In this document: piece after piece, positions 1,114-32,985 of the stretch
Layout of the letters: the number at the start of each line of letters is the position of its first letter
Position numbering within the stretch: position 1 is the stretch's first letter
Assembly: GCA_019695345.1 (NCBI GenBank)
Contig: JAIBAE010000049.1
Location: 1 to 33,007 of the forward strand
Direction: 5' to 3'
Length of the DNA stretch: 33,007 nucleotides
From: Bacteroidota bacterium
GTDB taxonomy: Bacteria; Bacteroidota; Ignavibacteria; Kapaibacteriales; NICIL-2
Position numbers and translations under genes: made by a program
The notes under the pieces: generated by a model
What the model was told of the DNA's origin: nothing
Databases searched by the model: none
The model's input: the letters and a program-made list of their open reading frames with translations, nothing else

Positions 1114-3504
1114 CTATTGTACAGCCACTTCAAATAATGTAATTATATTATATGATGTTGCACCAGTATTTGATGTTTGATTAACTTTTATAACTATATA
1201 CTCACCCGGACTAATCGTTGTATTTGCATTGTTTAATGATAACGTTGTCCATGAACCGCTATTTAACTGAATAGTATTACCTATTAGTACAGAAAGAGGT
1301 GCATTTAATACATCTACACATGATGTGTTTGAATTTACAAATTCTGTTAAGGCTGCATTACAGTTACACTTTTGTACCTGAATAGTCATATCATTTTGTC
1401 CGGAGATCGTTCCACTACCTACAGCGGTGTTAGCAGTAATGTTCTGAAAGTTGTTTGACGGAAAATAATACTTGATACTTGAAATAGTTTTAGTGGTTGA
1501 AAAATGTGTGATACTTCTGATAAATCTGGAAGGGGTGAGATTTGCATTTGATGAATTGTTAGTAGATAATGTCAAAATGTTTCCACCGGCAATTGCCCGC
1601 CATGGTCTAACTAAAAAACCATTCGTTGTATTCCCATCTATTGTTGGTTCAAATTGAAGGACTGAAGTGCTACCACCGCTACCACCTGAAGGTGCTGACC
1701 ATGAAGGTATATTGCCATTTACGGTTAACACATCACCAGAGCTACCTATCGGTAATCTTGTATAGTCTGTTCCATTGAAATACATAACATCACCTGCAGC
1801 ATCCGAGCCCATTGCAATTTTAGTTCCATCTACAGCATTATTACTAATCTTGGATGTAGTTACAGAGCTACTTGTTAAATCGCCGGCAACAATACTATTA
1901 CTGACGTTCAGTTTACTGTATGCAATTGCAGCAGTTGCGCTAATATCAGCATTGGTAATTGTACCATCGGCAATCTTTGCACTTGTAACAGCATTAGCAC
2001 CAATTACCGGATTAGGGTAGGATCCGGATAAATCTCCCCCTGCGTTACCGGTAGGAGAACTCCCACTTGGTGTTGACCAAACTACATTGGTACCATTATA
2101 TGATAAAACATCACCAGAACTCGCTCCTGTTGAGTTAATCTTGGATAAAGTTATAGCATTATTCGCAATTGTTGGATTTGGGTATACACCGCTTAAATCT
2201 CCACCTGCTGAGCCATTAGGAGGTAAACTAGTTGGCGCACCACTTAATTTGCTATAGCTTAAGCCATTAGCGATTTTTACATCGGTTATTGAGCCATCAG
2301 ATACATCACCTGTTACAATACTATTTGTTAAACTCAATTTGCTGTATGTAATTGCTGCAGTTGCGCTAATATCAGCATTGGTAATTGTACCATCGGCAAT
2401 CTTTGCACTTGTAACAGCATTAGCACCAATTACCGGATTAGGGTATGCACCTGTTAAATCTCCACCCGCCGAACCGGTTGGTGGTAAACTAGAAGGAGTT
2501 CCACTTAACTTACTATAGCTAATTCCATTTGCCACCTTAGCATCTGTTACCGATGCATCAACGATATCGCCTGTTACAATACTGTTTGTTAGGTTCAATT
2601 TGTTATAGTCAATTGCAGCTGATGGAGCTATATCTGCATCAACAATACTTCCATCGGTAATCTTTGCACTATTCACTGCTCCATTTGCAATGGTGTTGTT
2701 CCCGGAACTTCCCGTTACATCTCCAAGCATTGTCACACTTGTTGTTGAGGGTGGTGTTGCCCAAACTATACTTGAACCATTATAAGTTATTACCTTGCCA
2801 TTTGTTGCACCGGTTGTTGAAATCTTCCCTAATCCTAATGAGTTATTGTTTATGGTCAAATATCCACTTCCGGTAATAGTACCATTAATATTTAATGTCC
2901 CGCCTATTTCCGGACCGGCATTGTAGATAAGGTTCTGAAGTTTGTTGCCATTCTTATCAACAGTGTTACTCGGTGTGTTTGTGCTGATTGTTATCTCATT
3001 CCCCTTTTGTTCTACGGTAATACCATCACTCCCTTTTATCGATACATTACCCGTAGCATTGTTTACACTTTGAACTACTTTAGCATCGGATGATAGTGAT
3101 TTAGCAACCTCTGCGGTTCCTGCGTTCTCTGCATACAGAGAATTTGGTGATGGCGTTAACATGGTTCTTGGTGTTAACTCTTCACTATTGTTAACTCTTA
3201 TTCCAACATAATAATTGTTCTTAAATGAAATGCCAGAAGGGAGTTGTTTTACACTACCAATCAGGATGGTAAATGCTCCGTTTACAACATCAACATTGTG
3301 TGTTTCCTGAAATAAAGGAGTGGTTGAAGAAGGTGTGGTATATAACGCAACGGTAATTTGCTGTACACCTGTAATATTAACGGTAGATTGAGCCTCATTG
3401 AGCACGCCATGAAATGAAAACACATGATGTAGTTGTGCGGTAGCTATACCAGATAGAATGTAAAAAATGAATAATAATTGGCAAATGCGAGTTATATTTT
3501 TCAT
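1114..3504 (-). CDS. Fibre-like secreted repeat protein (conserved head, GGDLxGxYPNP stalk, unique tip)
   Basis: 796 residues with a signal peptide (MKNITRICQLLFIFYILSGI, ending near ATAQ). The head (about 25-175) matches two other proteins in this window (26985 and 30254), with shared blocks such as GVLNEAQSTV..., TPRTMLTPSPNSLYAENAGT and AEVAKSL. The stalk (about 190-600) repeats GGDLxGxYPNPxIxxNAxTxxKI and ITNADISATAAIxYSKL, a pattern typical of fibrous tail-fibre or adhesin-like proteins of Bacteroidota. The last 175 or so residues form a distinct tip with no counterpart in the paralogs; it includes a short Cys cluster (QKCNCNAALTE). No sorting domain is obvious at the C-terminus. It lies 44 bp after the end of the small secreted gene at 4049-3549, with which it forms a module. 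A role in surface attachment is inference. Confidence 0.7.
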   Translation of the reverse strand: MKNITRICQLLFIFYILSGIATAQLHHVFSFHGVLNEAQSTVNITGVQQITVALYTTPSSTTPLFQETHNVDVVNGAFTILIGSVKQLPSGISFKNNYYVGIRVNNSEELTPRTMLTPSPNSLYAENAGTAEVAKSLSSDAKVVQSVNNATGNVSIKGSDGITVEQKGNEITISTNTPSNTVDKNGNKLQNLIYNAGPEIGGTLNINGTITGSGYLTINNNSLGLGKISTTGATNGKVITYNGSSIVWATPPSTTSVTMLGDVTGSSGNNTIANGAVNSAKITDGSIVDADIAPSAAIDYNKLNLTNSIVTGDIVDASVTDAKVANGISYSKLSGTPSSLPPTGSAGGDLTGAYPNPVIGANAVTSAKIADGTITNADISATAAITYSKLSLTNSIVTGDVSDGSITDVKIANGLSYSKLSGAPTSLPPNGSAGGDLSGVYPNPTIANNAITLSKINSTGASSGDVLSYNGTNVVWSTPSGSSPTGNAGGDLSGSYPNPVIGANAVTSAKIADGTITNADISATAAIAYSKLNVSNSIVAGDLTSSSVTTSKISNNAVDGTKIAMGSDAAGDVMYFNGTDYTRLPIGSSGDVLTVNGNIPSWSAPSGGSGGSTSVLQFEPTIDGNTTNGFLVRPWRAIAGGNILTLSTNNSSNANLTPSRFIRSITHFSTTKTISSIKYYFPSNNFQNITANTAVGSGTISGQNDMTIQVQKCNCNAALTEFVNSNTSCVDVLNAPLSVLIGNTIQLNSGSWTTLSLNNANTTISPGEYIVIKVNQTSNTGATSYNIITLFEVAVQ
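1931..2445. repeat. Internal 89-bp exact direct repeat in fibre stalk
   Basis: The segments 1931-2019 and 2357-2445 are identical over 89 bp and lie 426 bp (142 codons) apart, in frame. They encode the stalk unit containing ITNADISATAAI and the following spacer. Exact DNA identity among otherwise diverged stalk units suggests recent duplication or gene conversion. It could allow the stalk to change length by recombination. Confidence 0.85.
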
Positions 3505-7363: not shown

Positions 7364-9790
7364 TTAGAAGAACTTTGGAAATTTGGTTGGTTGTGCCTCG
7401 TGCATAATGGAGTACACAGCATCAAAAATATGTTCTGCTTCGGGTTTGCTCCAGTAGTTGCCATCGGTACCATACGCAGGGCGGTGTGGTTTTGCCGCAA
7501 GAGTTGATGGTAGGGAATCCAGATATTTATAGCCACCTTGTTTTTCTAAAACTTCTTGCATCATGTATGCTGTTGTACCACCCGGTACATCTTCATCTAC
7601 AAAAATAATACGTCCTGTTTTTTGTAACGACTGACATATCATCCCGTGAACATCAAATGGAAGAAGTGTCTGTACATCTATTAACTCTACTTCAATTCCG
7701 CATTGTGCAAGCATATCGGCTGCTTTTTGTGCAACACGGCAAGTAGCACCGTATGTTACCATAGTAATATCATTTCCGCTGCGTAACACTTCTGGCACGC
7801 CAAGTGGAACGGTGAACTCACCAATGTTATCGGGCAATGTTTCTTTTAAGCGGTAACCGTTGAGAACTTCAACAATAAGTGCAGGGTCATCGCTACGTAA
7901 TAATGTGTTATAAAATCCTGCGGCTTGCGTCATGTTACGCGGAACACACACATACATACCACGAACAAGATTAATTATTCCCGCCATTGGCGAACCACTA
8001 TGCCACACACCTTCCAAACGGTGACCGCGCGTGCGCACAATTACCGGAGCTTTCTGTCCGCCTTTTGTACGCCACTGCACTGTTGCCAAATCATCGCTCA
8101 TCAATTGAAGCGAGTACAACAAATAATCGAGGTATTGAATCTCCGCAATAGGGCGTAGTCCACGCATTGCCATACCAATTGCCTGACCAAGAATTGTACA
8201 CTCGCGAATTCCGGTATCGCTTACACGCAACACACCGTGTTTTGCTTGCAGTCCGCTGAACCCTTGGTTTACATCACCAAGCTGACCAACGTCTTCGCCA
8301 AATGCAACAACACGTGGGTCTTTGGTTAGCCAGTAATCAAAGTTTGCGTTTAATACTTCAAAGCCAACCTTAACAGCAGAGCTCTCGGTATAGAGTGGCT
8401 TTACCTCTGCAATCTTCATTGCATTTGCTTGTGTTTCGGTATGCAGGTACGAACTATATCTATCCTCCTGCGTTGCTTGCATTGCGTTACGCCATTGCAA
8501 TAATGTTTGTGTTGATGGTAAATTCTCAGTGCGAACAACGCGCAACACACTATGGATTGCCGTGAAGTAATCTGCACGGAATGGCTCGCGTATGGAAAGC
8601 AATTCGTTTTTAATTGACGTAAGTTGTTCTTTGTGTGCCGATTCACTAATAATCACATCAAGCATGGTTGCAATCTGCAGGATCTCTTCTTTAATGGGAT
8701 TCATATACGCATCCCATGCACGTTGCTTTGCTTGCTTAACCGACTCAACACATTCTGCTTCAAGTGTATCAAGTTGTTCGGCAGTTGCAATACCTTTTGC
8801 AATCATCCATTCGCGCATTTTAAGCAAGCCGTCAAATTCCGATTCCCATTGTAATCGTTCTTTCGATTTATAGCGTTCGTGCGAACCGGATGTTGAGTGA
8901 CCTTGAGGTTGTGTAACTTCAATAACGTGAACAATAGCAGGGAAACCACTTTCGCGAACTCTATGTGCGGCACGTTTATAGGTATCAACCAAAGCCGGGT
9001 AATCCCAACCTTTAACGGTATATATATCGTATCCGGTCTTATCGCCATTCTTCCGTTGGAAGCCGGTTAACAACTCACCTACATTTCCTTTAGTGTGTTG
9101 AAATTCATTTGGAACGGAAATACCATAACCATCATCCCAAATAGAAACAATAACCGATGCTTTCAAAACTCCAATCGCATCTATGGATTCCCAGAACATA
9201 CCTTCGGCTGAACTTGCATTACCAATGGTGCCCCAGGCAATCTCTTTACCACCGTGCGAAAAATTAGTAAGGTGTTGTAATTCATTCAATTCTCTGTATA
9301 ATCTTGACGCATATCCCAACCCAACTAAGCGCGGCATTTGCGAGCCCGTTGGCGAGACATCGGCAGAGGAGTTGTATTCTTCCATCAGGTTACGCCATGT
9401 GCCATCGGGGTTAAGGAAGCGTGTTCCAAAGTGACCGTTCATAGAGCGGCCAGCACTTGATGGCTCGGCATCAACATCGGTATGTGCATATAACTGCGCA
9501 TAAAACTTCTGAACATCCGAAATCCCCAACGCAAACATAAACGTTTGGTCGCGGTAGTACCCGGAGCGAACATCACCTTTCTTAAAAGCGCGCGCCATAG
9601 CAAGCTGAGCTACTTCTTTTCCATCGCCAAAAATCCCGAACTTAGCTTTACCGGTTAATACTTCTTTTCTTCCTAATAAACTTGCCTGACGGCTTTCAAA
9701 ACCAATTCTATAATCTTCAATAATGCGCGCAGTATCAGCCATCCAGCCGGCCGAGCCATTGCTATGCGTTGTATCTTGAACATCAGGCAT
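7364..9790 (-). CDS. Fused E1 alpha/beta subunit of a 2-oxoacid (probably branched-chain) dehydrogenase
   Basis: This is a thiamine-diphosphate E1 component with both subunits in one chain of about 808 residues. The E1-alpha half (about 20-390) includes KAKFGIFGDGKEVAQLAMA, the cofactor region GTIGNASSAEG and IWDDGYGISVP, and a GHSTSGSHERYKS loop. The E1-beta half (about 450-800) includes VVAFGEDVGQLGDVNQGFSG, QYLDYLLYSLQLM and RGHRLEGVWHSGSPMAGI. E1 decarboxylates 2-oxoacids and passes the acyl group to lipoyl-E2 in the cytoplasm. No E2 or E3 gene is adjacent. The usual GDG...NN thiamine motif is replaced by GNA...DD, which I recall from other fused Bacteroidota E1 proteins. The start is uncertain: the first ATG is at 9790, with in-frame GTG at 9820 and TTG at 9832. 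The substrate cannot be fixed from sequence alone. Confidence 0.88.
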   Translation of the reverse strand: MPDVQDTTHSNGSAGWMADTARIIEDYRIGFESRQASLLGRKEVLTGKAKFGIFGDGKEVAQLAMARAFKKGDVRSGYYRDQTFMFALGISDVQKFYAQLYAHTDVDAEPSSAGRSMNGHFGTRFLNPDGTWRNLMEEYNSSADVSPTGSQMPRLVGLGYASRLYRELNELQHLTNFSHGGKEIAWGTIGNASSAEGMFWESIDAIGVLKASVIVSIWDDGYGISVPNEFQHTKGNVGELLTGFQRKNGDKTGYDIYTVKGWDYPALVDTYKRAAHRVRESGFPAIVHVIEVTQPQGHSTSGSHERYKSKERLQWESEFDGLLKMREWMIAKGIATAEQLDTLEAECVESVKQAKQRAWDAYMNPIKEEILQIATMLDVIISESAHKEQLTSIKNELLSIREPFRADYFTAIHSVLRVVRTENLPSTQTLLQWRNAMQATQEDRYSSYLHTETQANAMKIAEVKPLYTESSAVKVGFEVLNANFDYWLTKDPRVVAFGEDVGQLGDVNQGFSGLQAKHGVLRVSDTGIRECTILGQAIGMAMRGLRPIAEIQYLDYLLYSLQLMSDDLATVQWRTKGGQKAPVIVRTRGHRLEGVWHSGSPMAGIINLVRGMYVCVPRNMTQAAGFYNTLLRSDDPALIVEVLNGYRLKETLPDNIGEFTVPLGVPEVLRSGNDITMVTYGATCRVAQKAADMLAQCGIEVELIDVQTLLPFDVHGMICQSLQKTGRIIFVDEDVPGGTTAYMMQEVLEKQGGYKYLDSLPSTLAAKPHRPAYGTDGNYWSKPEAEHIFDAVYSIMHEAQPTKFPKFF

Positions 9791-20718: not shown

Positions 20719-21042
20719 ATGGAAATTCCCAAAAGTAGTTTTACAGTAGAGACATTCACTCCACATATAGGTGAAGAGTTTATAGTTGATATTGAGAATC
20801 AAAAATTCTCGTTGAAGTTGATTCTTGCTGAAGCCTCAGTGTTACACCCACGTGATGGAAGAAGTCTGGGTAAAAGCGGTTTCGTTAGAACCGATCCGTT
20901 TTCTTTGTTGTTTGAATGTAATCAATCATTACCCCAAATGTTATATGAAATGAATCATGCTGTTATTGGGGCTTTCCAAATTGGATTAGTGCCGGTTGGA
21001 CCTACAAATAATGGGTGGGGGATGGAAGCAGTTTTTAATTAG
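20719..21042 (+). CDS. DUF6916-like small protein
   Basis: 107 residues. The C-terminal half, DPFSLLFECNQSLPQMLYEM and HAVIGAFQIGLVPVG followed by a terminal EAVFN, is the pattern I associate with the DUF6916 family. That family is of unknown function and often encoded near MdpB-type tail-collar proteins. There is no signal peptide or membrane segment. The gene converges with the GNAT gene, leaving only 5 bp between stops, and sits at the edge of the tail-collar cluster, where such a gene would be expected. The ATG at 20719 has no obvious Shine-Dalgarno. The family name is recalled from pattern and was not checked by search. Confidence 0.6.
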   Translation: MEIPKSSFTVETFTPHIGEEFIVDIENQKFSLKLILAEASVLHPRDGRSLGKSGFVRTDPFSLLFECNQSLPQMLYEMNHAVIGAFQIGLVPVGPTNNGWGMEAVFN

Positions 21043-21047
21043 TAGAT

Positions 21048-21542
21048 TCACATTGCTAATTTTTTGGGTCGCTCCATGTAGATGTGAGTGCCGATATCCT
21101 TAGTAGTAACAAAACCGTATGAACTATAGAGCTTCTCTAAGTATGGTTTAGTTTTCTCAAAGTACAACGAAGAAGTGATATTCTTTTGGTCTAATTCGTT
21201 GGTGATTTGAGTCATGATATAATGACCAATACCCTGTTTGCGGTATTCCGGCAAAATGATAACATCCACGCAATGTACGTGGCTATCTGTTCTGTGTAAA
21301 ACCAACCTGCCTATATCGGTACTATGTAGTACCACTATATCATAGTTAAGGTTATCGTAGTTGTTTAGGAAGTGTAGCTGTTGTGCCTCAAATTGTTGAT
21401 TAAAGAACTTGGTTCGTTCTTCTGAGTTAACCCACTCAACGTATTGAAATTCTTCATCGCGAGATGTTTCGTACAGTAGTTTTAGAAAGTCTGTATCTGT
21501 ATCTTTTCGTGGACGTAGTGATAAATGAGAAGTGTACTTCAT
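21048..21542 (-). CDS. GNAT family N-acetyltransferase
   Basis: 164 residues. Motif A of the GNAT fold is clear: VDVIILPEYRKQGIGHYIMT, with R101-K-Q-G-I-G106 forming the acetyl-CoA pyrophosphate loop. A later YLEKLYSSYGF segment fits motif B. GNATs transfer an acyl group from acyl-CoA to an amine; the acceptor cannot be predicted here. It is the last gene of a minus-strand run behind the three tail-collar genes, with 55 bp to the upstream binding-protein gene. It could act on a collar protein or on an unrelated metabolite; position alone suggests the former. Confidence 0.82.
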   Translation of the reverse strand: MKYTSHLSLRPRKDTDTDFLKLLYETSRDEEFQYVEWVNSEERTKFFNQQFEAQQLHFLNNYDNLNYDIVVLHSTDIGRLVLHRTDSHVHCVDVIILPEYRKQGIGHYIMTQITNELDQKNITSSLYFEKTKPYLEKLYSSYGFVTTKDIGTHIYMERPKKLAM

Positions 21543-21597
21543 TCTGTTTTCTTTATCTATGTTAGTTCAGTACAAATCTATTTGTATATGGTGGTTC

Positions 21598-22755
21598 TTA
21601 TGCCATTAAATATGGAGAAAGATTACCACTTTGCATAGTATGTATGCCTTTAAGTGCATATACTACATCCTGTGTTTCAGTTGATAATCTTGATATAACT
21701 GATGTTGGGAATCCACGTCCATTAAAAAATTGATTGTCAATCTTGCTCACTATAAACTTATTCTGGGTATTAACCTGCATAAGTTCGGAAGTTATTGTTT
21801 GTGGCTGTGTATTGGCTATGATGTGGGCAATATTGTTACCCAATAACTCGAACAGATTCCAAGAACTGATTGCATTAGATGTAAATCGACTACTTGTGTT
21901 CTGAAACAAGTCAGGAACTACCGTAGTAACTGGAACTTTATCTAACAACTTCTTAACTGTTGTGGTTGCTTCTGAAATTGATTGATATGAAGCAAATATT
22001 GGAAGGTTAATATTGTTTTGAGCAACAAACGATAGGGATTTCTCGAGATTTGTACCAGTGCAATGAAGCAATATACAATCTATGTAAGGTTGTTGAAATG
22101 CATTAAATACTGTAGTTGATAATTGCGAGTGTTCTAAACCCGATATTGAGGTATCTGCATCAGCAATAATTATGCGTTCAATAGTACCACCAGGCTCTGT
22201 ATAGCCATGAATTAGACTTTGAAAACAATCATAACCAGAATCAATTTGTGAAGTAATTACTACGGCATTTTTCCCCGCTGAAGTATGTGCATAATTACCA
22301 AGGGTATAATTTGATTGCCATGATTGCAATGTATACGCTTGGGAATCGGAAAGTGCATTATGGATTTTCTCGCCTAATGATAGATTCACTATGGGAATTT
22401 TGTTAGCAACAACTTGCCGTATCAATGTAGAATCGGAATCTACCGATGAAAGTAATAAAATAATATCGGGTGAATGTTGAGCTAAGTAGTTTTCAATCTT
22501 TGTTTTCTTCTCTGTATTATTTGCTGGTAAGGTTAGAGTGGAGTAGTTGGTTCTTATGCAATTAACACGCAAACCCTTTAAAAAAGATGTTACAGATGTT
22601 TGTGATATGTTCCTAGCTGAAAAAACAGCCACATGAGGAATTACTGTGGTTGGATTTACTACTCTGTTAATAGTTCCTGATATAAGATTGCGCGGATTAA
22701 TAGCCGCTAACGACCCTAATCCCAATGTATATTTGAGTACATCTCTGCGTACCAT
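21598..22755 (-). CDS. Tat-exported periplasmic-binding-protein-like (type 1 fold) protein
   Basis: The start chosen at 22755 (MVRRDVLKYTLGLGSLAAIN) gives a twin-arginine leader (RRDVLK, then a hydrophobic segment) and 385 residues; the in-frame start at 22782 would precede it by nine hydrophobic residues. The mature part has alternating strands and helices of a type 1 periplasmic binding fold: VAVFSARNISQTSVTSFLKG, SPDIILLLSS, KIPIVNLSLGE, GTIERIIIADAD, IDCILLHC and NLPIFASYQS. This resembles ABC substrate-binding or LivJ-like receptors. No ABC permease or ATPase is nearby, so transport is doubtful and a sensing or carrier role is possible. It lies between the collar genes and the GNAT, 54 bp after the third collar gene. 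Confidence 0.6.
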   Translation of the reverse strand: MVRRDVLKYTLGLGSLAAINPRNLISGTINRVVNPTTVIPHVAVFSARNISQTSVTSFLKGLRVNCIRTNYSTLTLPANNTEKKTKIENYLAQHSPDIILLLSSVDSDSTLIRQVVANKIPIVNLSLGEKIHNALSDSQAYTLQSWQSNYTLGNYAHTSAGKNAVVITSQIDSGYDCFQSLIHGYTEPGGTIERIIIADADTSISGLEHSQLSTTVFNAFQQPYIDCILLHCTGTNLEKSLSFVAQNNINLPIFASYQSISEATTTVKKLLDKVPVTTVVPDLFQNTSSRFTSNAISSWNLFELLGNNIAHIIANTQPQTITSELMQVNTQNKFIVSKIDNQFFNGRGFPTSVISRLSTETQDVVYALKGIHTMQSGNLSPYLMA

Positions 22756-22809
22756 GCTAATAAAAAGTAAAAGTGAAAACAAACAAGCTTTGTAACGTTC
22801 CGTGTTATG

Positions 22810-23331
22810 TTAATTTCGTGAAGGAAAAATACCTTGTAAGGCAATGCAATAGTTTACTACCAAAGAAGGCATAATATTGTTATGAGGTTGGCTGCCACCT
22901 GAGTTACTAATCATAGTAGGATTCATCATCCCTGTAGGTTTATTGCCAAACTGTAGTGAGCGACTAAGCCCATCTTTGGCAGGAAATCTATTTCCCGGTG
23001 TAGTACCACTTCCTGTAGTGTTATTTGCATTTACAAGGTGATTGTGTGATGGAATCTGTGACTGATTTAGACTAACAGTTTCAGATCCGGACATTTCCCC
23101 TTGAGTTCTAGGTGTTAACCCCGGTCCTTGTCCCATGTGTAAAGGGATGCGGCTACGTAAATCAGGTAAGCCAAACGTTGTGCGTCCGTCGCCACCATAG
23201 GTAGTGCCTAACAAAGAAAATAGGGCTGTATTTTGTTGAATAGAAAGTAATTGTCCGGCGCAATAAGCATAGTTTCGTGGTGCAAAGTTAAACCCAGCCA
23301 TTATAATTTGTCCTATAAAAGGTTCAGCCAT
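22810..23331 (-). CDS. Tail-collar (MdpB/COG4675-type) protein, third of three
   Basis: 173 residues of the phage tail collar type. It begins MAEPFIGQIIMAGFNFAPRN, then YCAGQLLSIQQNTALFSLLG, YGGDGRTTFGLPDLRSR, a His-x-His pair H96-N-H98, PHNN and a final CIALQGIFPSRN. In T4 short tail fibres the analogous HxH binds metal at the trimer axis, so a trimeric, metal-stabilised collar is a reasonable inference. It is the most diverged of the trio (AGQ instead of DGQ/NGQ, NYAY instead of GYAS). AGGAC precedes the ATG by 8 nt. There is no signal peptide. Biological roles of this family in bacteria are not established. Confidence 0.88.
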   Translation of the reverse strand: MAEPFIGQIIMAGFNFAPRNYAYCAGQLLSIQQNTALFSLLGTTYGGDGRTTFGLPDLRSRIPLHMGQGPGLTPRTQGEMSGSETVSLNQSQIPSHNHLVNANNTTGSGTTPGNRFPAKDGLSRSLQFGNKPTGMMNPTMISNSGGSQPHNNIMPSLVVNYCIALQGIFPSRN

Positions 23332-23377
23332 GGTAACGTCCTATTGATAAATTATTAAATGTAGCAATCAACAATTA

Positions 23378-23905
23378 TTAATTCCTGGATGGAAATATTC
23401 CCTCTAATGCAATACAAAAGTTAATAACTAAATACGGTTGCATATTATTATGGGGTTGGTTACCACCAATACTACCTAACATTGTAGCATTCATTACTGT
23501 ACCGTCCGAAGAATCGCTATAATTTTGAACACCAATTGGGCTTGCATCTTTGGCAAGAAAACCGTTTGTAGGGTTTGTATTTCCTTGCGCATTATTATTT
23601 GCCGTAATAGTATGTGAGTGCGCAGGTAAATCCCTCACCAAAAGGTTCATATTTTCTTCTCCGGCAGACTCACCTATGGTATAGTTAGATAACCCGGGAC
23701 CTTGTCCTTGATGCAATGGTGTTCTACCACGTAAGTCAGGTAATCCAAAAGTGACCCGCCCATCTCCTCCATATTGTGTGCCAAGTAAGGAGAACAATGC
23801 GGTGTTCTGAGCAATAGGTAATAACTGACCATTACACGAAGCGTAACCCCTAGGTGCAAAATTAAAACCTACTTGTATTATTTGTCCGATAAAAGGTTCT
23901 GCCAT
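23378..23905 (-). CDS. Tail-collar (MdpB/COG4675-type) protein, second of three
   Basis: The start at 23905 (MAEPFIGQIIQVGFNFAPRG) matches the two paralogs exactly; an in-frame extension to 23944 adds 13 unsupported residues. The product is 175 residues with YASCNGQLLPIAQNTALFSL, TFGLPDLRGR, H96-S-H98, a variable loop (about 101-148), PHNNMQPYL and the C-terminal CIALEGIFPSRN. The fold is that of the phage tail collar domain. The variable loop differs from its neighbours, while both ends are almost identical, suggesting a shared scaffold with a differing exposed region. It is separated by 46 bp from the third gene and 72 bp from the first. Confidence 0.88.
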   Translation of the reverse strand: MAEPFIGQIIQVGFNFAPRGYASCNGQLLPIAQNTALFSLLGTQYGGDGRVTFGLPDLRGRTPLHQGQGPGLSNYTIGESAGEENMNLLVRDLPAHSHTITANNNAQGNTNPTNGFLAKDASPIGVQNYSDSSDGTVMNATMLGSIGGNQPHNNMQPYLVINFCIALEGIFPSRN

Positions 23906-23977
23906 AAGCGGTTTCTTTCTAATGTAAACTTTCAAACAAAACAAAAATTAACAAGGTATACATACATATCTATTATG

Positions 23978-24499
23978 TTAATTCCTTGAAGGATATATAC
24001 CTTCTAACGCAATGCAAAAATTAATAACCAGGTACGGTTGCATATTATAATGTGGGTTATTACTACCGGAGGTAGATAACATTGTTGGATTCATATTTGT
24101 ATTAGGCAGGGAATCGGTATAGGGAGTAGCACCGGATGTATCTGTGGCAAAATAATTACCGGATGGAGATTGACTTGTGCCAGCAATTGATGAGGCATAT
24201 ATTGAATGGGAGTGAATTGGCATTTCAGATGTTGTTAATGTATGGTTTTCTTCTCCAATTGATTCACCCATTGTCATATTCCTTAAACCAGGACCTTGGC
24301 CTTGGTTCATAGCAGCTCTTCCACGTAAATCCGGTAACCTAAATGTAGTGGTACCATTTCCGCCATATGTGGTTCCAAGTAAGGAAAATAGGGCAGTATT
24401 TTGTGAAATATCTAACAACTGTCCATCACAACTTGCATAACCTCGTGGTGCAAAATTGAAACCCGTTTGTATGATTTGTCCAATAAAAGGTTCTGCCAT
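23978..24499 (-). CDS. Tail-collar (MdpB/COG4675-type) protein, first of three
   Basis: 173 residues: MAEPFIGQIIQTGFNFAPRG, YASCDGQLLDISQNTALFSL, FRLPDLRGRAAMNQGQGPGL, H96-S-H98, a variable Ser/Thr-rich loop (about 101-145), NPHYNMQPYL and CIALEGIYPSRN at the C-terminus. It is the first gene of the minus-strand run. AGGG lies 8 nt before the ATG. A possible -7 element (TAATTTTG) occurs on the minus strand at 24603-24596, implying a leader of about 90 nt. No capsid, portal, terminase or other tail gene is present, so this is not a recognisable prophage. Confidence 0.88.
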   Translation of the reverse strand: MAEPFIGQIIQTGFNFAPRGYASCDGQLLDISQNTALFSLLGTTYGGNGTTTFRLPDLRGRAAMNQGQGPGLRNMTMGESIGEENHTLTTSEMPIHSHSIYASSIAGTSQSPSGNYFATDTSGATPYTDSLPNTNMNPTMLSTSGSNNPHYNMQPYLVINFCIALEGIYPSRN

Positions 24500-24708
24500 A
24501 AATATGCCCTTTAATTTAGTTTACTTCTTGGTTAATATGTGTAAGCATCTTAATATGTTACAACTCATGTTACCAATTTACCTTCACAACTTAATCAAAA
24601 TTACTGTGTTCCACTTTGAATATTTTGTAAGTACAGTTAATATTGATAAATTTTGACATTATAAAAATATCACACGATTTTTAAACCTACATCAGTAAAA
24701 CTACAGAA

Positions 24709-25218
24709 CTATTCTCTCAGCCATTTAATCATAGCAGGAAATGGAAGTGTGTGATTTTCTTTGGCTCTAATTTCATCAAAACATAAGCCAATCCACTGTA
24801 ACATCGGGACTCCAATAAATCTGCCTTCCTTAAAGTTATCTACAATATTAGAACCACCTCCCTGATAGCCATTATCATGAAATACAATGCCTGGACTTAT
24901 GCCAATGTATAACGCAGCGGCATAACTCCATGGTATCGCCATTAACTCTCCGGCCATTTCTAAATCTATTTTCGGGTCTATTGCTCCATTGGCAGTAGTC
25001 CGCATATTAGGAGGCATAACAGCAAGGTGTCCGGCCTCATGTAATATATCCCCGGGATACAGTAGTTTGTTCGTATCAATCAATAAGCCGCCATTGAACA
25101 AATCAATGCCTGGTAAAACTGTTTCATAATTAATTGGCCCAAACACAACATGAATACCAATATCATTCAAAAAATTACATATCAAAGTAACAGTTTTGTT
25201 TTTGTCTTCAGTTTCCAT
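24709..25218 (-). CDS. Hypothetical protein with HEXXH zinc-protease-like motif
   Basis: 169 residues, not assigned to a family. H60-E-A-G-H64 in GDILHEAGHLAVMPP is the gluzincin/zincin signature, placed after a helix-like segment. A downstream acidic stretch (IDLEMAGELMAIPWSYAAAL) supplies candidate third ligands. There is no signal peptide, so it is probably cytoplasmic. The product could be a small metallopeptidase or an inactive relative. The gene follows the dioxygenase gene by 22 bp on the same strand, so the two are almost certainly co-transcribed. It is 209 bp upstream of the collar trio in the same direction. The motif is seen directly; proteolytic activity is inference. Confidence 0.6.
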   Translation of the reverse strand: METEDKNKTVTLICNFLNDIGIHVVFGPINYETVLPGIDLFNGGLLIDTNKLLYPGDILHEAGHLAVMPPNMRTTANGAIDPKIDLEMAGELMAIPWSYAAALYIGISPGIVFHDNGYQGGGSNIVDNFKEGRFIGVPMLQWIGLCFDEIRAKENHTLPFPAMIKWLRE

Positions 25219-25240
25219 TGGATTGTTAGTAGTGTTGATA

Positions 25241-25939
25241 CTATAATTGAGTTCGTAACTTATCCGCTAAGTCGATCGCCGTCTGAGTCCCTTGTTGCAG
25301 TAGTTCTTGAATAATTTTCTGAATGGTTTCTTTGTCGAATTGTTCGTTTTTTACTGTAGTGGTTTGTGTGATTACAGACGTATTCAACATTGCTCGCAGC
25401 CAATCATTTACTTTTCCATCTATTACTAAATGTACTCTGTCAGTTTTACCGTTGTTACTAACTCGGTGACGTAAACTTAAGTTAAGATACCAGCATTCAC
25501 CTTCATTCATAATTATACGCTCATCCTGTACATAAAATTCAACATTGTCATTTGTTATTATCGGGATGTGTAATCTTACCTCACCTTCTTCAAAGGATAG
25601 TTGGTAATCCATGTGTTCTTTAATAATTGACCCTGCATTCAATTTCATTAAGCGTACTGATTGTAACGGAAATTGGAATGATTGAATTACTTCCAGTAAG
25701 TATGGACATTGTTGCAAGTAAACAGTGGGCTCGTAGTGTAAGTTAGCTGCATTTTCTGCGTGAACAGACAGAATACTCTCTGCTTTGCCTCCCAAAGAAT
25801 ACAAGGGTATTACAGTCCAGCTACCTTCAAAGTTTTGAGCGTTATAGTGTTTTTGCCACAATTGTTGTTCTAAACGAAAAACATCATTCTGCATTTCGTG
25901 AACATTAAATACCAATGGGAGTTTACTATATAATAGCAT
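25241..25939 (-). CDS. Aspartyl/asparaginyl beta-hydroxylase-like Fe(II)/2-oxoglutarate dioxygenase
   Basis: The start at 25939 (MLLYSKLPLVFNVHEMQNDV) gives 232 residues and has AGGA 8 nt upstream. The open frame continues to 26062, but that extension runs through intergenic repeat G and is not credible as protein. The core has H109-M-D111 (KEHMDYQLS), R122-L-H-I-P, WYLNLSLRHRVSN and R168-V-H170-LVID. This is the HxD...H iron triad plus the Arg that binds 2-oxoglutarate in the Asp/Asn hydroxylase domain family. It would hydroxylate Asp/Asn side chains of a protein or peptide using O2. A C-terminal helical tail (about 195-232) is extra. The partner gene with HEXXH follows after 22 bp. Confidence 0.82.
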   Translation of the reverse strand: MLLYSKLPLVFNVHEMQNDVFRLEQQLWQKHYNAQNFEGSWTVIPLYSLGGKAESILSVHAENAANLHYEPTVYLQQCPYLLEVIQSFQFPLQSVRLMKLNAGSIIKEHMDYQLSFEEGEVRLHIPIITNDNVEFYVQDERIIMNEGECWYLNLSLRHRVSNNGKTDRVHLVIDGKVNDWLRAMLNTSVITQTTTVKNEQFDKETIQKIIQELLQQGTQTAIDLADKLRTQL

Positions 25940-26298: not shown

Positions 26299-26814
26299 AT
26301 GAGGTATATACATGTTGTTTATTTACTAATTACGGCATTTGTATTTTGCAAAACTCAAATATATGCGCAAACTGTAACTCGAAATGTAATTAGTAATGGT
26401 GGCATCATCTCTCAAAACGCTGAAGTACAATTACAAGGAACACTTGGGCAGGGAGTTATTGCACCAGTATCAGACTATGAAACATCCATTACTCAGGGTT
26501 TTTGGTATATAGCAACCGAAGAACAAGGGTATAATGATAATACAATGTTATCATATGGAAGTAATATGCTCAATATCCACCCTCATCCTGTAACCAATCA
26601 ATCAACAATAAATTATACTGCCAAAGAATACACAAGCATCCGAATAGAATTATATACCATACTCGGTGAATTTGTTAAAGAACTCTATAATTCTCCAAAT
26701 CAAGGTTTACTGGAAATACCTCTTAATACCGATGAGTTGAGTAGCGGACAATACAATGTACGTGTAACAACTGATCAACAACAGCAAAGCATCATGATTA
26801 TCGTACAGAAATAA
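26299..26814 (+). CDS. Small secreted protein with sorting-domain-like C-terminus (module 2)
   Basis: 171 residues with a signal peptide (MRYIHVVYLLITAFVFCKTQ, ending IYAQT). The N-terminal half carries SNGGIISQNAEVQLQGTLGQ and ITQGFWYIATEEQ; the C-terminal half is a sorting-domain-like sequence (MLNIHPHPVTNQS, IRIELYTILGEFVKELY, LSSGQYNVRVTT, MIIVQK). AGGGGAG precedes the ATG. It is highly similar to the protein at 29610 and has the same layout as that at 4049-3549. Each of the three is followed by a long fibre-like gene. The GTLGQ..GFWY block is common upstream of sorting domains in FCB bacteria; its role is unknown. It could be a secreted partner or assembly factor of the fibre, by inference. 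Confidence 0.7.
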   Translation: MRYIHVVYLLITAFVFCKTQIYAQTVTRNVISNGGIISQNAEVQLQGTLGQGVIAPVSDYETSITQGFWYIATEEQGYNDNTMLSYGSNMLNIHPHPVTNQSTINYTAKEYTSIRIELYTILGEFVKELYNSPNQGLLEIPLNTDELSSGQYNVRVTTDQQQQSIMIIVQK

Positions 26815-26984: not shown

Positions 26985-28844
26985 ATGAAGAATCTACTAT
27001 GGTTTGCAATGTGTTGTGTAATTATCGCAACAGCAACCAAACTGTATTCCCAAGGAAGCGTACCCCATGCGATGTCGTATCAGGGTGTATTAGCCGACCC
27101 GTCAACAGGTAAGTTTTTACCCGACGGTAACTATAAGATAGTAGTACGGTTGTATGAGGGAATCAATGAAGAAGCGGTAATTTATTCCGAGACACAACGG
27201 GTAGTAGTAGTACGTGGTGTGTTTAATATGATAATCGGGAGTGTAAATCCATTTCCAAGTACAATGAAGTTCGACCGTGCCTACTTTTTGGGTGTAAGTG
27301 TAAATGGAGGAGAGGAGATGAAGCCACGGACAGCATTAACAGCATCGCCGTATGCAATGTATGCAGAGAATGCCGGAACAGCAGAGGTAGCGAAGTCATT
27401 ATCACCCGATGCAAGTGTGGTAACAGGAATTAACAATGCCAATGGAAATATCACGTTGAAAGGTGATAATGGAATTAATGTAGCACAGAAAGGCAATGAA
27501 ATTACAATTACAGCAGATCCGGCGTTGATACAGTTTGATAAAAGTGGAAATAAATTACAAAATACAATCTATAATTCCGGACCGGAGATTGGTGGAACAC
27601 TACTCATGAATGGAACAGTAAGTGGAAATGGGTATTTGACATTAAATAATAATTCTATAGCCTTAGGAAAATTGAGCACTACAGGTGCAGCAAATAATAA
27701 AAGTATAATCTATAATGGATCTTCTATTGTTTGGGGAAATCCATTGCCAGGGGGTACTGCAAGTGGCGATCTAACTGGTTCTTACCCTAATCCAACAATC
27801 GCAGCAAATGCTGTAACTACAACTAAGATAGCCAATGGAAATGTTACTCTACCTAAAATCAGCACTGCTGGAGCTGGTACCGATCAGGTAATCAAGTTTG
27901 ATGGAACTGATGTTGTTTGGGGAAATGGGTTTGTTCTTCCTTATTCTAACTCCGTAAACTCAGCATCTACGTTGTTTGATATTACACAAACTGGTAATGG
28001 TAGCTCTGGTAGGTTTGCAATAAATAATAGTGGTAACGTATCATCAGCATTAAATGCCACTACAAATGGAATAGGTAACGGTGTTTCCGTTCAACTTACT
28101 AATGCCAGTAACGGAGCGCGCGGTGTAGATGTAATGCAAGCAGGTGTTGGACCCGGTGTATTTGCAACGAGTGCAGGTGGTAATGCCGTTTGGGGTATTA
28201 CCTCTTCTATCTCGGCAGCAGGTGTAATAGGTGATAATACATTTGGCGAAGCAGTTGTAGGCCGTAACCGTGGTGGTAACGGAGTTGGTGCTGTTGTTGG
28301 TAGAAATGACTCTTCCGGATATGGTTGTAGAGGTTTCAATACAAAGGATGGCATAGGAGTACTTGGTCAAGCTGGTATTAGTGGGGGTACGGGTGTTGGT
28401 GGTAGATTTGAAAATGTGAATGCTGCAAATGGTAATGATGCTTTACAGGCTGCAACTAATGGTACAGGTTGGGCTGGCAATTTTACCAATGCTAACAACT
28501 CATCGGCATCCAGAGGTATTCGTATTTCTACTACTGCAGGTCAAGGTGGAAATGCCATATCTATAGCAAATGGTACTTTATCACTATCTCGCCAGCATCC
28601 TTACACAAGTAATACTACTATAGATGATAATATACTTGTTGTTACTGCAGCAGGAAATACTACTATTCCAACAGGTGCACCCTTGGTTGATGGTGCAACT
28701 GTCTGGGTGATTAATAATGCTGGAGCAGTAGTTACAATAACAAATACAACAGTTGGTAGCTTTAATGTAGATCCCGGGAGGGCAGTTCAGTTGTTATTTG
28801 TTTCTACAGTAAGTGGTGCCAATTGGATACCTGTTCAACCATAA
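26985..28844 (+). CDS. Fibre-like secreted repeat protein with glycine-rich shaft (module 2)
   Basis: 619 residues. The start is supported by AGAGGAG 6-10 nt upstream, and the signal peptide is MKNLLWFAMCCVIIATATKL, ending YSQG. The head (about 25-180) shares long stretches of identical DNA with 30254 and includes YQGVLADPSTGKFLPDGNYK, PRTALTASPYAMYAENAGT and NGINVAQKGNEIT. A short stalk has [19 protein letters not shown]. Then a Gly/Asn-rich shaft (about 320-530: GVGGRFENVN, GTGWAGNFTNAN and similar) suggests a beta-helical or trimeric fibre. The tip (about 540-619) ends NWIPVQP. It differs from both paralogs beyond the stalk. It follows the 171-residue gene by 170 bp and is followed closely by a small secreted gene. 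Confidence 0.72.
   Translation: MKNLLWFAMCCVIIATATKLYSQGSVPHAMSYQGVLADPSTGKFLPDGNYKIVVRLYEGINEEAVIYSETQRVVVVRGVFNMIIGSVNPFPSTMKFDRAYFLGVSVNGGEEMKPRTALTASPYAMYAENAGTAEVAKSLSPDASVVTGINNANGNITLKGDNGINVAQKGNEITITADPALIQFDKSGNKLQNTIYNSGPEIGGTLLMNGTVSGNGYLTLNNNSIALGKLSTTGAANNKSIIYNGSSIVWGNPLPGGTASGDLTGSYPNPTIAANAVTTTKIANGNVTLPKISTAGAGTDQVIKFDGTDVVWGNGFVLPYSNSVNSASTLFDITQTGNGSSGRFAINNSGNVSSALNATTNGIGNGVSVQLTNASNGARGVDVMQAGVGPGVFATSAGGNAVWGITSSISAAGVIGDNTFGEAVVGRNRGGNGVGAVVGRNDSSGYGCRGFNTKDGIGVLGQAGISGGTGVGGRFENVNAANGNDALQAATNGTGWAGNFTNANNSSASRGIRISTTAGQGGNAISIANGTLSLSRQHPYTSNTTIDDNILVVTAAGNTTIPTGAPLVDGATVWVINNAGAVVTITNTTVGSFNVDPGRAVQLLFVSTVSGANWIPVQP
27072..27481 (+). repeat. Head-coding segment with blocks identical to 30344-30753
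   Basis: Two exact blocks, 27072-27161 (90 bp) and 27331-27481 (151 bp), recur at 30344-30433 and 30603-30753 at a constant offset of 3272 bp. The intervening DNA is slightly diverged. The flanking small genes and downstream stalks are much less alike, so the head has been copied or converted recently. Confidence 0.9.
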
Positions 28845-29609: not shown

Positions 29610-30125
29610 ATGAAGAGTAAACATCTGTTTTGCTTTACAGTAGGGATCATTGCCTTTTTTGGTTTAGAAGCTTCTTCTCAAATTATTTTAAAATCGGTCA
29701 CAGGCAATGGAGGGAGTGTATCTCAAAATACGGAAGTGCGATTGTGTAGTACGGTAGGGCAAAGCGTCATATCACCAGTTAGTGATTACGAATCAACGAT
29801 ATCGCAGGGTTTTTGGTACATAGCCACAGAAGAACAACAGTATAATGCAATAACTCCATTGGCTTATGGAAGCAATATGCTGAATATCCATCCTCATCCT
29901 GTAACACATCAATCAACTATAAACTATACAGCTAAAGAGTATACAAGCATACGAGTAGAACTATACACTATGCTCGGTGAACTTGTAAAAGAGCTCTATA
30001 ATTCACCAGATCAAGGTTTAGTAGAAATACTTCTCAATACCGATGAGTTGAGTAGCGGTCAGTACAATATTCGTGTTACCACAGAACAACAACAACAAAG
30101 TATCATGATTATTGTTCAGAAATAA
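29610..30125 (+). CDS. Small secreted protein with sorting-domain-like C-terminus (module 3)
   Basis: 171 residues, same length as the protein at 26299. The signal peptide is MKSKHLFCFTVGIIAFFGLE, ending ASSQ. NGGSVSQNTEVRLCSTVGQS and ISQGFWYIATEEQ match the 26299 protein, and the C-terminal half from about residue 90 (MLNIHPHPVTHQS, VELYTMLGELVKELY, LSSGQYNIRVTTEQ) is nearly identical to it. The N-terminal 40 residues differ most. A G-run (GGGGGG, 6 nt upstream) serves as ribosome site. It is followed after 128 bp by the third fibre gene. It is a tandem paralog; its role in secretion or assembly of the fibre partner is inference. Confidence 0.7.
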   Translation: MKSKHLFCFTVGIIAFFGLEASSQIILKSVTGNGGSVSQNTEVRLCSTVGQSVISPVSDYESTISQGFWYIATEEQQYNAITPLAYGSNMLNIHPHPVTHQSTINYTAKEYTSIRVELYTMLGELVKELYNSPDQGLVEILLNTDELSSGQYNIRVTTEQQQQSIMIIVQK

Positions 30126-30253
30126 TCTTCTATACCTTATTCCGATTTTATCTGTGCATCCGTTACTAATACAATCGGGATACCATCCATTTTAGCTATA
30201 TAAAAACACAAGTTAATTAAGTAGGTAAATTCATAAAATAAATGGAGTACTCA

Positions 30254-32985
30254 ATGAAGAAACTTCTTTTTGCATTAGTGGCATGTTGTGTAATGATGAC
30301 AACATCAGGAGTTGTACTTTCTCAAAGTGCAATACCACATGTAATGTCGTATCAGGGTGTATTAGCCGACCCGTCAACAGGTAAGTTTTTACCCGACGGT
30401 AACTATAAGATAGTAGTACGGTTGTATGAGGGAGTTAATGAAGATGAAGTGGTGTATAGTGAAACACAACGAGTAGCAGTGGTACGTGGTGTGTTTAATA
30501 TGATAATCGGGAGTGTAAATCCATTTCCAAGTACAATGAAGTTCGACCGTGCATATTTCATGGGAGTAAGTGTAAACGGCGGCGAAGAGATGAAGCCACG
30601 TACAGCATTAACAGCATCGCCGTATGCAATGTATGCAGAGAATGCCGGAACAGCAGAGGTAGCGAAGTCATTATCACCCGATGCAAGTGTGGTAACAGGA
30701 ATTAACAATGCCAATGGAAATATCACGTTGAAAGGTGATAATGGAATTAATGTGGCTCAGAAAGGCAATGAGATAACCATAAGTGCAACTTCATCAGGTA
30801 CCGGATTAGATAAGGGTGGTAATGGGTTACAGAATGTAATTTACAACTCGGGTACAGAAATCGGAGGGACATTAAACTTAGCTGGAACCGTATCCGGTAC
30901 AGGCTACCTAACATTGAATAACAACTCAATAGGGTTAGGTAAGCTATCATCTACAGGAGCAACAAATGGCAAAGTTATAACCTATAACGGTTCGAGTATC
31001 GTATGGGCAACACCACCTGTAACTACATCAGTAACAATGGGTGGAGATGTAACCGGAAATTCAGCAAGTAATACAATTGCAAGTAATGCCATAACAAGTG
31101 CAAAGATTGCAGACGGTAGTATAGTTAATGCTGATGTTTCATCCTCTGCTGCAATAGGATATAGTAACTGAATTTATCTAACAGTATCGGTACGAGTGAT
31201 GTAACAGATGGCGCTATTACCGATGCTAAAGTAGCTAATGGAATTAGCTATAGTAAGTTAAGTGGAGTGCCAACAAGTTTACCTCCAAATGGTTCTGCAG
31301 GTGGAGATTTATCGGGAATCTATCCAAATCCAACCATTGCAAATGATGCTGTAACAAGCGCAAAAATTGCAGATGGTAGTGTAACAATCCCAAAGTTAAG
31401 TGCAACAGGAACAGCTGATAATACAACATTCCTGCGTGGTGATGGAACATGGTCCGCTGCAAGTGGCGGTTCGGTTACTACTAATGCTACGTTATCAGGC
31501 GTTGGAACCGGTGGCTCGCCATTAGGAATTAATCTTGGAAATAGTAATACATGGACTGCCAACCAAACTTTTGGCGGAACATTCTTGATAACGGCAAATT
31601 CAAGAATTGCTATGACAAATAGTGATAATAATGCACGGGATATACGCCAACAAGAGCCAAGTGGTACCGGCTCGCAATACATCGGGTGGCGCGCACCTTC
31701 GGTATCAAATAATGGTAACTATGTATGGCCAGCTGTTGTTGGTTCGGTAGGACAGGTATTAACGCTGTCAACTTCGAATGGAATAGATTCTGCATCAACC
31801 TATTGGTCAACACCTTCAGCAACGCCAACTGGCTCAGCAGGAGGAGATTTAAGTGGTTCATATCCTAACCCAACTATTGCAAACGATGCTGTAACAAGTG
31901 GACATATTTCAGACGGCACCATTGTAAATGCCGATGTTTCCACATCAGCGGCAATTGCTTATAGTAAGTTAAATTTAGTGAATAGTATACAAAATGCAGA
32001 TGTACAAGCAAATGCAATCACAACCAGTAAAGTTGCAAATGGTACGGTAACAACAAGTAAACTTGCAGATAGTGCGGTAAGTGGATTAAAATTGTTGACA
32101 TCTGCTGTACAAACTCCGCATATAGCAAATGGTGCCGTAACAATGCCTAAACTTAGTGCTACTGGTACAGCCGATAATACAACCTTTCTCAGAGGCGATG
32201 GGACGTGGTCTACACCAAGTGGTGGTACACCAAGTGGATCAGCTGGTGGCGATTTGTCCGGTTCGTATCCAAACCCAACAATAGCAAATAGTGCTATTAC
32301 AACTACACACTTGTTAGATGGTACTATAGTAAATGCTGATGTTTCATCATCTGCGGCAATTGCTTATAGTAAATTAAATTTAGTGAATAGCATACAAAAT
32401 GCTGATGTACAAGCTAATGCAATCACAACCAGTAAAGTCGCAAACGGAACAGTAACAACAAGTAAGATGGCAGATAGTGCAATAAGCGGATTAAAGCTGT
32501 TAACGTATGCAGTTACAAATAGGCATTTAGCAAGTAATGCAGTAACAACTGAAAAAATAGACCCAACAGGAGCAGCTTCAGGTGACGTGTTAACATACAA
32601 CGGTTCGTCAGTTGCTTGGGCTGCACCAAGTGGTGGTGGTGGTACTTCTATTGCAACATATTCTATAACAGCTGATGCAGCTAATAGTATAACTGTTTCA
32701 AATACTTCTGCAACTCATCACAGATTAGATTTTTCAGGATCATCCGGAACAACAACTACAATTACTATTACTTTAGCAAATCCTTCTTCATATACATCTC
32801 CCAAACAATTGAATTTTTACGTTACAACTGGAACAAATGGTGGAAACAGTCCAACTATAACCTTAGTTACTCCGACTGGTCCATATTATCATTTCACAAG
32901 TGGAAATAGTTCTGCATTTTCTCTTGGTGCGATATCATTGTTTTCTATTATGACCGACGGAACTAACTATTATCGGGTACCATAA
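30254..32985 (+). pseudogene. Fibre-like secreted repeat protein (module 3), interrupted by a one-base frameshift
   Basis: The start at 30254 (MKKLLFALVACCVMMTTSGV) has GGAG 6 nt upstream. The frame runs to a stop at 31169-31171 in ...AAIGYSN. Adding one A after AGTAA (31164-31167) restores [11 protein letters not shown], the expected stalk repeat, and the frame continues to 32985 for about 910 residues. The head (25-180) is nearly identical to 26985. The stalk has [37 protein letters not shown] and [17 protein letters not shown], each repeated. The tip (about 800-910, [12 protein letters not shown] to YYRVP) is unique. It may be a pseudogene or carry a sequencing or assembly error; the downstream frame shows no further damage, which favours a recent event or an error. 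Confidence 0.8.

Follow-up and report, generated by a model that had tools for sequence, protein, structure and literature searches.

The tips of the T4 fiber proteins gp12 (1ocy) and gp37 (2xgf) have the fold of the collar proteins described below, and HxH motifs in phage tips of this kind hold metal on the trimer axis. Bacteria also encode such proteins: the mosaic adhesive trimer (MAT) fibers of Bdellovibrio are chromosomal, phage-fiber-like trimers that serve as surface binders (PMC10769870), and RhiB of the RhiABC set of Rhizobium leguminosarum, like MrpB/MdpB (COG4675), is a bacterial collar-domain protein for which a role in interactions is proposed (PMC13133039; PMC4949626). Here we analyzed a cluster of eight genes (positions 20719-25939) in a 33,007-nucleotide stretch of contig JAIBAE010000049.1, hereafter the window, from a Bacteroidota genome of 4.56 Mb. 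In this cluster three paralogous collar genes are accompanied by a GNAT acetyltransferase, a DUF6916 protein, a PF05118 dioxygenase (AspH), a protein with an HEXXH motif and a protein with a twin-arginine translocation (Tat) leader. All eight genes that a sequence-only reading of the window had listed were confirmed in their places, seven on the minus strand and DUF6916 on the plus strand, and both neighborhood and genome counts showed their association to be more than chance.

Each of these domains has been catalogued already, and MAT fibers and RhiB are the nearest functional analogs, differing from the window system in parts and build. Unlike the T4 proteins, the window system has no shaft, baseplate or phage, consists of three separate paralogs, and has GNAT, DUF6916, AspH and HEXXH partners. 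MAT fibers, in contrast, combine shaft and tip in a single polypeptide that bears a signal peptide, and have neither a collar trio nor terminal-modification enzymes (PMC10769870, a paper from which the word "collar" is absent), and MAT-like fibers adjoin the window locus. RhiB is a single collar protein that is controlled by quorum sensing together with RhiA and RhiC, and the parts of its description consulted here make no mention of GNAT, DUF6916, AspH or HEXXH genes. AspH belongs to the same HxD...H dioxygenase family as L-proline cis-4-hydroxylase (4p7w) and the other PF05118 aspartyl/asparaginyl hydroxylases, but known members target free amino acids, EGF-like domains or lipids, and we know of no description of a protein C-terminal Asn as a target of this family. 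The closest solved relatives of the window GNAT include N-terminal acetyltransferases (RimI, Ard1/SSO0209 and 6wqb), with a Ser/Ala preference that fits the collar N-termini; RimI/Ard1-type enzymes, however, are housekeeping proteins with many targets, whereas the module GNAT is a dedicated gene beside its presumed substrate.

In Acaryochloris marina, the expression of an acetyltransferase gene (AM1_3686), a hypothetical gene (AM1_3687) and three phage tail collar genes (AM1_3688-3690) falls together, and this collar set is co-regulated with light-harvesting genes (PMC11633204). A collar protein is contained in the exoproteome of R. pomeroyi (PMC4949626), COG4675 proteins have been detected in soil metaproteomes (PMC5579227), and positive selection has been reported for collar paralogs of Solibacter (PMC3174227). 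Neither DUF6916 nor a paper joining tail collar, acetyltransferase, operon and adhesin was found in the literature searched, where two papers name COG4675, and no description of the module as a whole was found there, subscription literature lying outside the search.

A collar-anchored scan of named genomes resulted in 79 loci from Bacteroidota, Pseudomonadota, Acidobacteriota, Actinomycetota, Chloroflexota, Planctomycetota, Myxococcota, Bacillota and others, with 3.5 kb as the limit of the neighborhood and 695 kb of farther flank as background. The GNAT lay within this limit in 53 of the 79 loci and DUF6916 in 45, compared with 2 matches and 1 match, respectively, in the flank; because the anchor was the collar, these counts are free of bias from their own queries. 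Random variation of the neighbors of collar trios, which the sequence-only reading had named as contrary evidence, was thus not found. In the reverse direction, DUF6916-anchored loci from 249 Pseudomonadota genomes had collars within ~8 kb in nearly all cases, with a handful of exceptions. Within a set of 296 Bacteroidota genomes, 79 of which have collar genes, DUF6916 occurred in 8, each time adjoining collar genes, and the module GNAT (defined by E below 1e-60) occurred in 7, all of them among the 8 DUF6916 genomes (p 2e-13). The window cluster is one example of a conserved module whose loci span at least eight phyla, and we regard this module as almost certainly real.

The membership of AspH and the HEXXH protein had been left open by a gap of 209 bp before the collar genes. 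The gap was confirmed (the two genes themselves are 22 bp apart), and genome-level counts gave an answer. The HEXXH family is present in 15 of the 296 Bacteroidota genomes, and all 15 carry collars (p 9e-10; genus-collapsed 6e-4). The short AspH type is present in 16, again all with collars (p 2e-10; genus-collapsed 2e-4), a class that was split from canonical PF05118 after the E-values had been seen; unsplit, 18 of 24 PF05118 genomes have collars (p 3e-7). The partner of AspH is either the HEXXH gene or a sulfotransferase-like gene, and the pair adjoins the collars or sits elsewhere in the genome. This dependence on collars without need of adjacency makes the gap not decisive, and by genome-level co-occurrence AspH and the HEXXH protein belong to the module. 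The AspH triad (H109/D111/H158) and R168 are invariant in 24 relatives. In the HEXXH protein, the HEAGH motif together with E91 and H114 (further possible ligands) is invariant in 12 relatives, suggestive of a putative metallopeptidase; no Pfam or NCBIfam family and no solved relative was found for it. In locus L082, which also has AspH and sulfotransferase-like genes, an asparagine-synthase/lasso-cyclase-like protein (7633-9537) is encoded directly upstream of the collar genes, and L193 has a gene of the same size in this setting.

The three window collars match the collar domain PF07484 above cut-off (E 9e-27 to 2e-27), and a predicted collar model (pLDDT 83.9) aligned with the T4 gp12 tip (1ocy) over 92 residues at 2.5 A (Z 10.0) and with the gp37 tip (2xgf) at Z 9.6. 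The two histidines of the HxH motif (H96 and H98) were invariant in 67 of 67 diverse collars, and the motif is located where the T4 tips bind metal. Of 91 collar runs, 59 comprised exactly three genes, and the nearest relative from another locus occupied the same trio position for 124 of 180 members, with a sister from the same trio being nearest for only 15. Three ancient collar paralog lineages therefore persist and have been retained as a set, a pattern that a hetero-oligomer would be expected to show. The window trio, in which collars 1 and 2 resemble each other more closely, comprises the only collar genes of its source genome. A different arrangement was seen in L188 (G016:C23:5000-24000), from the same order as the window genome, where twelve tandem collar genes have varied C-termini and no adjoining GNAT or DUF6916.

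Both ends of the collar proteins covary with the enzymes, an observation that is new here. When 1,730 residue-column pairs were compared between collars whose locus contains AspH and those whose locus does not, the top-ranked difference was the last residue, which was Asn in 33 of 34 collars with AspH and in 87 of 265 without (p 9e-14). A cross-phylum recount on true C-termini showed that 23 of 24 collars with AspH in cis end in Asn, compared with 84 of 258 otherwise; at locus level, collars all ended in Arg-Asn (RN) in 9 of 11 loci with AspH and in 20 of 100 without (p 7e-5). An RN-ending collar was present in 17 of 17 Bacteroidota genomes with short AspH and in 7 of 32 others, which is an almost separate test because AspH may lie elsewhere in the genome; the link persisted when stratified within families (exact p 6e-4). 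Three genomes (G221, G250 and G320) each have one RN-ending collar set and another that is not. At the other end, 194 of 211 collars in GNAT loci start with Met-Ser/Ala/Thr/Gly, compared with 12 of 31 in GNAT-less loci, where most start with Met-Glu or Met-Asp; counted by locus, the signature was found in 75 of 86 with and 4 of 17 without the GNAT (p 3e-7). Within G221 and G250, collar sets linked to the GNAT start with MA (one of three with MD) and the unlinked sets with ME or MD. All three window collars have the form MA...PSRN, in keeping with the presence of both enzymes. The earlier proposal that collars are hydroxylated or acetylated thus gains specific covariation (C-terminal Asn with AspH, N-terminal Ser/Ala with the GNAT), which is indirect evidence.

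Most collars are leaderless; among their relatives, about eleven have a Sec leader, and Tat leaders occur in L250, L261, L267 and L270. Tat-leader genes are enriched adjoining collars (17 of 418 vs. 4 of 513), and the proteins that occupy this slot are of several folds, second DUF6916 copies among them; 15 of the 18 loci with two DUF6916 copies pair one plain copy with one Tat-leader copy. The Tat-leader protein of the window has a weak leader, with RRDVLK present and a hydrophobic stretch under the threshold used, and matches Peripla_BP_6 collar neighbors in 7 other loci (phmmer E 1e-11 to 1e-8). Its putative binding fold, which had been listed among the things seen directly, is visible only through these relatives. 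Overall the sequence-only reading is partly supported: the domesticated fiber tip is well supported, in view of the conserved neighborhood, the gp12 fold, the lack of phage morphogenesis genes and the lack of DUF6916 in phage records, and the exported "receptor" as such is unsupported, its slot being filled by Tat-leader proteins of several folds. A fold search for DUF6916 gave no clear relative, with a PilZ/YcgR-N-like barrel matched at best at Z 8.6 and 4.2 A over 85 residues and Foldseek E at best 0.2. Second, Tat-leader DUF6916 copies occur in L086, L090, L092, L112, L113, L117, L128, L132, L136 and others, and three Paenibacillus loci (L125, L148 and L151) share a divergent Tat-leader protein of ~550 residues adjoining the collars.

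Secreted proteins of at least 900 residues adjoin the collars in 48 of the 79 loci compared with 17% of control points, a class whose domains and secretion signals differ by phylum and of which a few, from GC-rich genomes, may be spurious frames. In the window, phage-fiber-like secreted proteins are encoded at 26985-28844, 30242-31171, 31267-32985 and 1114-3504, having sub-cutoff matches to the Bdellovibrio MAT N-domain (33.4 and 32.2 bits, below the cut-off of 60) and/or DUF5907 repeats, and the source genome has ten MAT-domain matches. The fiber at 26985-28844 is likely part of the module, a large secreted protein filling this slot in most relatives.

In the explanation that we favor, a chromosomal, non-phage system would make three paralogous fiber-tip proteins, each a single gp12-like collar plus head with no shaft, which may assemble around metal into a heterotrimeric binding tip. 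The dedicated GNAT would acetylate the collar Ser/Ala N-terminus after Met removal, and AspH would oxidize, most likely by beta-hydroxylation, the C-terminal Asn of ...P-x-R-N-COOH, with its HEXXH or sulfotransferase-like partner acting upstream or downstream of it, on the same collar end or on the assembly. The signal-less, folded collars could leave the cytoplasm by riding with the Tat-leader partner (in other loci, DUF6916 or the collar itself bears the leader), and the exported, metal-stabilized trimeric tip would bind its target outside the cytoplasm, probably on or with the large secreted surface protein encoded next door. Judged from sequence comparison, GNAT acetylation of the N-terminus and AspH hydroxylation of the C-terminal Asn of an exported fiber-tip trimer are the most likely activities. 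To the explanation as a whole, a phage-tip trio enzymatically finished at both ends and exported as a binding tip, we give an even chance. Its fullest form, an undescribed but widespread surface system with a phage-derived heterotrimer, GNAT-acetylated N-termini, a C-terminal Asn that the AspH/HEXXH/sulfotransferase set hydroxylates and, in certain lineages, sulfates or processes, and folded Tat export, is put forward tentatively, as possible rather than probable. COG4675 "microcystin-dependent" or "tail fiber" proteins, which are widespread among soil and marine bacteria but have lacked a function, are now tied to a fixed partner set, and the idea of their modification is narrowed to two exact predictions, acetyl-Ser/Ala at the start and hydroxy-Asn as the last residue. 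If true, this would provide first functions for DUF6916 and the HEXXH family and reveal one way in which phage tips are converted into components of the cell surface.

Several observations weigh against this explanation. RN ends are also found in 5 of 28 AspH-less Bacteroidota genomes, several GNAT-less collars start with Ser/Ala, and the signatures at the two ends may simply be traits of collar subtypes that accompany the enzymes; the acetyl and hydroxyl marks on collars are themselves predictions. Among solved structures, AspH is matched best by a hydroxylase of a free amino acid, proline (4p7w). In the cross-phylum set AspH and HEXXH, being too rare, are not individually enriched to significance within 3.5 kb of collars, and the case for their membership consequently rests on genome-level co-occurrence. 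Finally, the window collars have no signal peptide and the window Tat leader is weak. The system might be real and extracellular with enzymes that modify the neighboring large secreted or MAT-like fiber, or a surface glycan or lipid, instead of the collars, the collar termini differing by subtype for structural reasons. Such targets would suit the frequency of large secreted repeat proteins next to collars, the recurrence of a sulfotransferase-like partner and the breadth of PF05118, which covers LpxO-type and free-amino-acid hydroxylases. The covariation, however, extends to the very last and the second residue, ranks first among 1,730 tests and distinguishes collar sets within a single genome, which leaves this alternative doubtful.

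It is unlikely that collars are cytoplasmic stress or signaling proteins of the MdpB/RhiB type in a module with no surface role: most collars do lack a signal peptide, COG4675 proteins appear in soil metaproteomes (PMC5579227) and the Acaryochloris set follows light-harvesting genes, but collar relatives bear Sec or Tat leaders, DUF6916 copies bear Tat leaders, a collar was detected in an exoproteome and the loci are linked to secreted giants. Decidedly unlikely, in our view, is that no modification apart from hydroxylation, trimming or sulfation is real and that the GNAT acts elsewhere, with the Ser/Ala bias reflecting collar clades. GNAT-less loci are few (17) and partly from one lineage, and some genomes that lack the module GNAT have collars of the Flavobacterium type (MSTEPF); the contrast between linked and unlinked sets within G221 and G250 nevertheless speaks for the GNAT. 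The collar is a phage tail domain and shows a weak resemblance, of at most 38%, to minor tail proteins of phages; on these grounds we considered whether the cluster is what remains of a decayed prophage or tailocin, with the other genes as bystanders. We rejected a prophage tail-fiber remnant as extremely improbable, given that no other tail, baseplate or morphogenesis gene was matched within the interval, that the loci of relatives are likewise non-phage, that non-phage partners are conserved over many phyla, and that among 50,697 phage records DUF6916 had no match at E 0.1 and collars had matches, all distant, in 56. The earlier remark that no other phage gene is present accordingly holds inside the interval, the phage-fiber-like secreted proteins of the window lying outside it.

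Table 1. Genes of the collar cluster and the adjoining fiber gene, with positions in the window.
Feature	Position	Strand	Description
AspH	25241-25939	-	PF05118 2OG-Fe(II) dioxygenase, E 1.3e-20
HEXXH protein	24709-25218	-	HEAGH motif
Collar protein 1	23978-24499	-	173 aa, MAEPF...GIYPSRN, PF07484, HxH at 96/98
Collar protein 2	23378-23905	-	175 aa, MAEPF...GIFPSRN, PF07484
Collar protein 3	22810-23331	-	173 aa, MAEPF...GIFPSRN, PF07484
Tat-leader protein (MVRRDVLKYTLGLGSLAAI)	21598-22755	-	Distant relative of Peripla_BP_6 proteins
Module-specific GNAT	21048-21542	-	Predicted N-terminal acetyltransferase of collars
DUF6916	20719-21042	+	PF21880, 3.4e-18; six-stranded barrel; core module member
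MAT-like secreted fiber	26985-28844	+	NF053851 below cut-off, DUF5907

The DUF6916 and GNAT genes (Table 1) are convergent, with 5 bp separating their stop codons. A search for the Bacteroidetes-type promoter pattern across the window found none, and sigma-70-like promoter and terminator scans gave results no better than shuffles. The plus strand beyond the cluster contains a tandem duplicated pair, in which a small protein sorted by the type IX secretion system is followed by a MAT-like fiber (26299-26814 with 26985-28844, and 29610-30125 with 30242-31171). Further fiber-like proteins with DUF5907 repeats at 1114-3504 (minus strand) and 31267-32985 (plus strand) make the window rich in secreted fibers. 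Elsewhere, giant secreted proteins from several lineages, encoded immediately upstream of collars (L097, L103, L113, L117, L123 and similar loci), have a common C-terminal tail like F.GGAAC..P, which is possibly a docking or sorting tail.

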